Below, piece by piece: positions 1,066 through 1,584 of a DNA stretch of 38,604 nt. The notes beneath the pieces are model-generated. The model worked only from the letters and a program-made list of their open reading frames with translations, was not told the origin of the DNA and did no database searches. The stretch comes from Nitrososphaeraceae archaeon (GTDB taxonomy: Archaea > Thermoproteota > Nitrososphaeria > Nitrososphaerales > Nitrososphaeraceae). Made by a program: the position numbers and the translations under genes. The stretch spans positions 1-38,604 of the forward strand of contig JAKEIK010000072.1 of assembly GCA_022545895.1 (NCBI GenBank), read 5' to 3'. How positions within the stretch are numbered: position 1 is the first letter of the stretch; each line of letters opens with the position of its first letter.

Positions 1066-1584
1066 ATGAGCTAGCACAGTATCAGTCAAATACGGGTCTG
1101 TAGCCAAGTTTACTGTAGATATTCCAACTTTAGTGTATGGATAAGGGAGTCAGCCAGCTCCGTGTTTGGCTTTCCCCTCTACCATCATGTTCGGTGAACG
1201 GAGCCGAAACCCGAACAACCTATAGACATTAAATAGACAACATCATTTAAAGCGATTATCGACAACAATTCAAACCATTTCATAAGTCTGACTAAACTAT
1301 ATTGAGAACTTGCAACCAAGCTTAGAAATATAGCTATCTCATCTTAGAGCGTACGATGGATGAAATTCTGGTCAAAGGAAAATTTCATCGTGAGAATATA
1401 ATTATCCATCACAACCAGCAAAGAATACAGCAAGCCTGGAACCAGAATGTCATTGATACTCATCAAATTGTTCGTCAATCGGATGCACTATGATAATAAC
1501 TTCGATAGTAGCCTTATTTCGAATGGAGCCGTATGAGAGTTATCAAAGAGCTAAAGTTAGTTAGTGTCTGTGGACGACTCGTAA
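1066..1584. other. Intergenic region before the MFS gene
   Basis: Apart from the GC-rich structured segment at 1145-1216, the only notable item is a 45-codon frame at 1356-1493 (+). Its product is hydrophilic, with many Gln, Asn and His residues, and I cannot link it to a family. I see no clear promoter for the gene at 1585. Confidence 0.4.
1145..1216. ncRNA. Candidate structured RNA with possible kissing loop
   Basis: This stretch is visibly richer in G and C than its surroundings. GGGA 1145-1148 pairs with TCCC 1173-1176, and AGCCA 1152-1156 with TGGCT 1167-1171, giving a hairpin with a ten-base loop. GTTCGG 1189-1194 pairs with CCGAAC 1211-1216, giving a second hairpin. The loop segment GCTCCGT 1157-1163 is perfectly complementary to ACGGAGC 1198-1204 in the second loop, which would form a seven-pair kissing interaction. 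An alternative TTCGG/CCGAA pairing (1190-1194 with 1204-1208) competes with it. The transcribed strand is not determined. It could be an RNA gene, a leader far upstream of the MFS gene, or the end of a lost insertion sequence. Confidence 0.35.

Follow-up and report, generated by a model that had tools for sequence, protein, structure and literature searches.

A Conserved Kissing-Hairpin RNA Element, Absent from Rfam 15, in Nitrososphaeraceae Archaea

We describe a structured RNA element of the archaeal family Nitrososphaeraceae whose fold, two hairpins joined by a 7-bp loop–loop helix, is shown to be maintained by compensatory change. The element was found in a 38,604-nucleotide stretch of a Nitrososphaeraceae archaeon (contig JAKEIK010000072.1; hereafter, the window), and we consider it fairly likely to be the gene for a structured RNA of ~100–115 nt that stands alone, acts in trans and is almost entirely confined to this family. 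At gathering thresholds, Rfam 15 recognizes no family in the window. A search of 14 of the first 32 loci returned only one tRNA, far from the element, and a search of the window element and copy L024 with E-values up to 10 gave nothing relevant, with no row for the purine riboswitch (RF00167). Searches of the literature available to us, including those aimed at regulatory or structural RNAs of Nitrososphaera, found no published description of such an RNA. The Rfam result agrees with a sequence-only reading that could assign no known family by eye and had left a new non-coding RNA as one possibility; that possibility is now supported by covariation, by a promoter-like box at a set position and by the failure of Rfam 15 to match. 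The architectural theme is a known one, but the RNA family itself is not in Rfam 15.

The Element in the Window

The element is intergenic, between an ORF on the minus strand (40–675) that matches PsbP-like proteins and an MFS transporter ORF on the plus strand (1585–2781), and overlaps neither; nearby genes encode PsbP-like, MFS, PH/SHOCT, 2OG oxygenase and DEAD helicase proteins. Its GC content is 0.46, versus 0.34–0.39 in the adjoining 100-base segments, which confirms the AT-rich intergenic setting given in the sequence-only reading. All sequence elements named there sit exactly where they were placed on the plus strand (GCTCCGT, 1157–1163; ACGGAGC, 1198–1204; GTTCGG, 1189–1194; CCGAAC, 1211–1216; and the alternative CCGAA, 1204–1208). 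The proposed two-hairpin layout is correct in that both hairpins are present, but the second extends to 1137, and the RNA strand is the minus strand. The features are as follows.

1133..1229, minus strand: RNA element (covariance models R1, 55.2 bits, and R2, 63.5 bits; this copy is among the 61 rows behind R2 and absent from the 27 behind R1)
1246..1251, minus strand: TTTAAA, putative TATA-like promoter box (sequence, and positional enrichment in the copies of relatives)
1188..1217, minus strand: hairpin 1 (P2), TGTTCGG (1217–1211) with CCGAACA (1194–1188), 7 bp, 16-nt loop (fold; compensatory changes in subtype-B copies)
1198..1204, minus strand: kissing arm 1, GCTCCGT on the RNA strand (loop–loop pairing and covariation)
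1157..1163, minus strand: kissing arm 2, ACGGAGC on the RNA strand (loop–loop pairing and covariation)
1137..1185, minus strand: hairpin 2 (P3), ATGG/CCAT, a 2x2 internal loop, GAGGGG/TCCCTT, an internal loop, AGCCA/TGGCT, and the loop with kissing arm 2 (fold; P3 covariation in relatives)

Folded as a single sequence, the core (1137–1217, minus strand) is moderately more stable than its shuffles (z of –2.27), while other cuts of the element give z values of –0.4 to –1.8. When the window is scanned for pairs of neighboring hairpins that have 4-bp stems and complementary 7-nt loops, 18 places are found, compared to a mean of 17.65 in 40 simulated sequences; requiring 5-bp stems leaves three places, the kissing-hairpin element among them. 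The arrangement alone is therefore not beyond chance, and it is conservation together with covariation of the kissing pairs that lifts it above chance.

Distribution among Genomes

A nucleotide search with 101 nt of the element matched 38 of 101 genomes, the window genome included, and an alignment of 32 copies displayed conserved structured stretches within unrelated flanks. Covariance model R1 was built, with the kissing pairs omitted, from 27 main-type copies (alignment A1), the other five of the 32 loci (L001, L002, L003, L029 and L032) being divergent or partial. R1 matched 44 of 400 genomes of the class and 7 of 398 genomes of the phylum, all seven of which belong to the window's family. 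A second model, R2, was derived from 61 copies (alignment A2, with 61 matches drawn from 61 sources; the partial L003, the later-found L260, L261, L264 and L266–L268, and a few others are not in it). The covariance search in relatives called for by the sequence-only reading thus recovered the element: R2 places it in 48 of 70 Nitrososphaeraceae genomes and 10 of 12 genera, and in 49 of 400 genomes of the order, where the sole carrier outside the family is G379. Named carriers among the matches listed include Candidatus Nitrosocosmicus sp. WS192, Nitrososphaera sp. nzgw16 and several Nitrososphaeraceae and Nitrososphaerales assemblies.

The element is common but not universal in Nitrososphaeraceae. 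Of the family's 37 genomes with completeness of 90% or more and contamination of 5% or less, 29 carry it. When 30 genomes, most of which had given no match before, were searched under looser settings, eight matched. Since it is missing from genomes rated 93%–99% complete (for instance G044, G288 and G050), it is not essential.

Exact-pattern scans of genome and viral collections returned mostly chance sites. Of 125 listed sites, which do not amount to a census, 16 have the complementary heptamer downstream; 15 of these are the family's own sequence, and one (L130, from Actinopolyspora) appears by eye to be chance. The two-hairpin pattern had no match in viral contigs, and the element had none in phage and plasmid records. 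A covariance model run on 48 of the loci from the pattern scans gave weak viral matches (E of 0.001–0.003), which were rejected, as they have no second kissing arm. In Desulfonema magnum, a GC-rich repeat that fits the loop-1 pattern but seems to be unrelated and has no kissing partner occurs several times (L124, L155, L159, L161, L173 and L186).

Compensatory Change in the Fold

Across the 61 copies, 29 of 39 pairs have changed on both sides, the compensatory change in an alignment of homologues by which the sequence-only reading had said its fold could be supported. Standard pairs are formed in 91.8% of cells. The figure for shuffles is 78.2%, with none of 500 equaling the alignment, and for controls with slid partners it is 33%–49%. 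In the claimed seven-pair kissing loop, 98.1% of cells are paired: all seven pairs form in 54 of the 61 copies, six in another six copies and five in one. Five fully Watson–Crick versions cover 43 of the 61 copies, namely GUUCCGU/ACGGAAC (16 copies), GUCCCGU/ACGGGAC (11), GCUCCGU/ACGGAGC (6), AUUCCGU/ACGGAAU (6) and ACUCCGU/ACGGAGU (4), and two compensated versions can occur within one genus (ACUCCGU and GUCCCGU in g9; GUUCCGU and GCUCCGU in g12). Because R1, the aligning model, lacks the kissing pairs, the alignment was not fitted to them. On either side of the kissing helix stand unpaired bases that are invariant or nearly so: loop 1 has UUU and UUC, and loop 2 has AAA.

Two further pairings were considered and rejected. 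A second long-range helix, CTATTAT in the junction with ATAATAG in the internal loop, has 85% of its cells paired, but no pair changes on both sides and shuffles equal the observed values; pair 15–59, near the base of P2, is unpaired in 35 of the 61 copies and is unsupported.

The sequence-only reading had also raised a conformational switch, in which a TTCGG/CCGAA pairing competes with the outer pairs GTTCGG/CCGAAC. The window sequence does hold both pairings, so the competing one exists as described. It is not kept in relatives, however: the 5-mer is exact in just 3 of 61 copies, while covariation maintains the main fold, and a switch is accordingly most improbable.

Covariation between the loops is blind to whether they pair within one molecule or between two. 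The loops, whose sequences are invariant, might then contact an mRNA, as in a base-pairing antisense small RNA, or another copy of the RNA, with the kissing complement used between molecules to form a dimer. Against this, both loops always lie next to each other in one transcript, and the P1 helix of the main type (below) and the similar lengths of the arms would favor contact within a single molecule. We give pairing of either intermolecular kind little credence.

Main Type and Subtype B

What we call the main type has an outer helix P1, the P2 hairpin, and a ten-pair P3 that contains an asymmetric internal loop. P1 is weaker than the other helices, with 79% of its cells paired in A2. By eye, P1 and the internal-loop motif are lacking in the window copy, a copy on contig C105 of the same genome, L029, L088 and a syntenic set in the window's genus. 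The window copy retains both hairpins and the kiss, with no clear P1, and is a divergent paralogue, here termed subtype B. Twelve hand-picked subtype-B-like copies (alignment A4) have 91.6% of cells paired and 14 double-change cells (0 of 500 shuffles as high), but 14 of 500 shuffles matched their seven pairs with a change on both sides, and a slid control had nine. The 12-copy set is thus weaker evidence than the main set. A compensated change is seen in P2, which reads TGTTCGG/CCGAACA in the window and CTTTCGG/CCGAAAG in the syntenic set.

Several individual copies merit description. Within the window's genome, L002 (G000:C105:5704-5854) and L003 (G000:C123:6165-6287) share a stretch of 123 nt that is 85% identical and runs from the upstream flank into hairpin 1; L003 ends after that hairpin, and the flank common to both holds an ATG-led open stretch. 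The sole copy outside the family, L088:4610-4710 from G379 of the same order, is of the small type, and its adjoining gene carries a C-terminal zinc ribbon.

Promoter and Gene Neighborhood

A TATA-like hexamer occurs in the 18-nt stretch that begins at –35 in 34 of 61 copies, versus 1–10 of 61 in stretches beginning from –290 to –50; about 27 of the 61 have no recognized hexamer in that best stretch. An own promoter-like box at a fixed distance is what a free-standing archaeal non-coding RNA gene would have. The usual archaeal spacing, which we take to be ~25 nt past the box, would put the window's transcription start near 1222, as expected from its TTTAAA. These positions support transcription of the window RNA from a putative promoter of its own on the minus strand. 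The copies show no T-run that would mark a 3' end common to them.

The nearest downstream gene of at least 100 aa lies on the RNA strand in 22 of 61 copies and on the opposite strand, facing the RNA, in 32, and is absent from the piece in seven; a same-strand gene of this size begins within 150 nt in only five of the 61. Taken with the TATA-like box at a fixed distance, the scarcity of same-strand downstream genes gives the element the look of a stand-alone RNA that acts in trans rather than that of a leader or of the end of an insertion sequence. The 201 neighbor proteins form 136 clusters, the largest with seven (transcription factor B, TFB) and six members, and most of these reflect descent shared within genera. 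Pfam comparison of 122 of the 136 representatives (short ones were omitted) found alpha/beta hydrolases most often (4), with DDE transposases in two, and no downstream gene family is common to the copies.

Two neighborhoods recur. In genus g2, a TFB paralogue accompanies one RNA paralogue, with RNA and gene converging (L037, L038, L041, L095, L099 and L114). A Rieske-flavodoxin gene, its domains named by eye from sequence, adjoins the RNA in several loci and in both orientations; at L034:6138-7096 of genome G022, the Rieske-flavodoxin-like gene that immediately follows the RNA is fragmented, with full-length homologues in L044, L040 and L045.

These neighborhoods bear on whether the element is instead a riboswitch-like cis-regulatory leader, whose three-way junction and kissing loops would form the 5' end of an mRNA, respond to a ligand or protein and regulate the gene that follows. 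In topology it resembles the purine riboswitch, with a three-way junction closed by P1, two parallel hairpins and a loop–loop contact, and in the main type P1, P2, P3 and the loop–loop helix all covary. A same-strand Rieske-flavodoxin gene starts 8–14 nt after the RNA in three related loci, and the gene at L088 starts 47 nt after it. The element differs, however, in its longer arms, its seven-pair kissing helix and the absence of an Rfam match. Nor is it placed as a 5' UTR element would be: the same-strand count is just the 5/61 given above, the next gene faces the RNA in about half of the copies, no downstream family is shared, and the Rieske-flavodoxin gene is oppositely oriented in L040 and L045. 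A leader thus seems unlikely.

A mobile or selfish element (an insertion-sequence end, a guide RNA for a TnpB-like nuclease, a site of integration, or a short non-autonomous repeat) would account for the patchy presence of the RNA, with 1–6 copies per genome in scattered places, and for the two copies in the window's genome that share a flank and hairpin 1, one of them truncated. An insertion-sequence end should have a transposase or TnpB gene alongside, which the window's neighbors do not supply; there is no partner gene in common, the two DDE matches are the only ones among the 122 neighbor proteins, and TnpB is not among the 25 commonest families. The matches to viral contigs (by the two-hairpin pattern), phages and plasmids that such an element might have were not found, and synteny at the genus level points to vertical descent. 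The lost insertion-sequence end offered by the sequence-only reading is therefore not supported, and mobility of any of these kinds appears quite improbable.

Relation to Known RNAs and Proposed Function

Two other known systems invite comparison. The Alu domain of SRP RNA likewise has two adjacent hairpins joined by loop–loop pairs. These number about three in the Alu domain, whereas the element has seven that covary, with no S domain and no match to an SRP model. TnpB-associated guide RNAs (IS200/IS605, IS607) are also short structured prokaryotic RNAs with tertiary contacts; the element differs from them in its own promoter-like box and in having no TnpB in the window's nearest genes or the common neighbor families.

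For the free-standing RNA that we favor, trans action is inferred, and its function is probably that of a rigid protein-binding scaffold. The kissing helix would clamp the two parallel arms into a rigid platform, and on this platform the invariant bases of the loops may be displayed to a partner, which is most likely a protein. The molecule could then be the RNA component of a ribonucleoprotein, or it could lure a regulator away as a decoy. Its absence from near-complete genomes and its diversified paralogues fit an accessory regulator or ribonucleoprotein better than a core housekeeping RNA. A more specific proposal, which we put forward tentatively as possible, is that the ammonia-oxidizing archaea of soil have a ribonucleoprotein RNA class of their own, new to science, in which a stand-alone RNA uses the kissing-hairpin clamp to show its invariant loop surface to a dedicated protein; of its two diverged subtypes, the smaller one, that of the window, would be the minimal functional core of two kissing hairpins.

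Implications

A natural, strongly covarying seven-pair kissing complex is useful for work on RNA structure. The RNA is small, its fold is well supported, and some copies lie in single-contig genomes of the family, such as the one at C1:2400608-2400717 (plus strand) of G034, so that its expression, partner and loss-of-function are directly testable. The regulatory and structural RNAs of ammonia-oxidizing archaea are little known, and these archaea matter to the soil nitrogen cycle.
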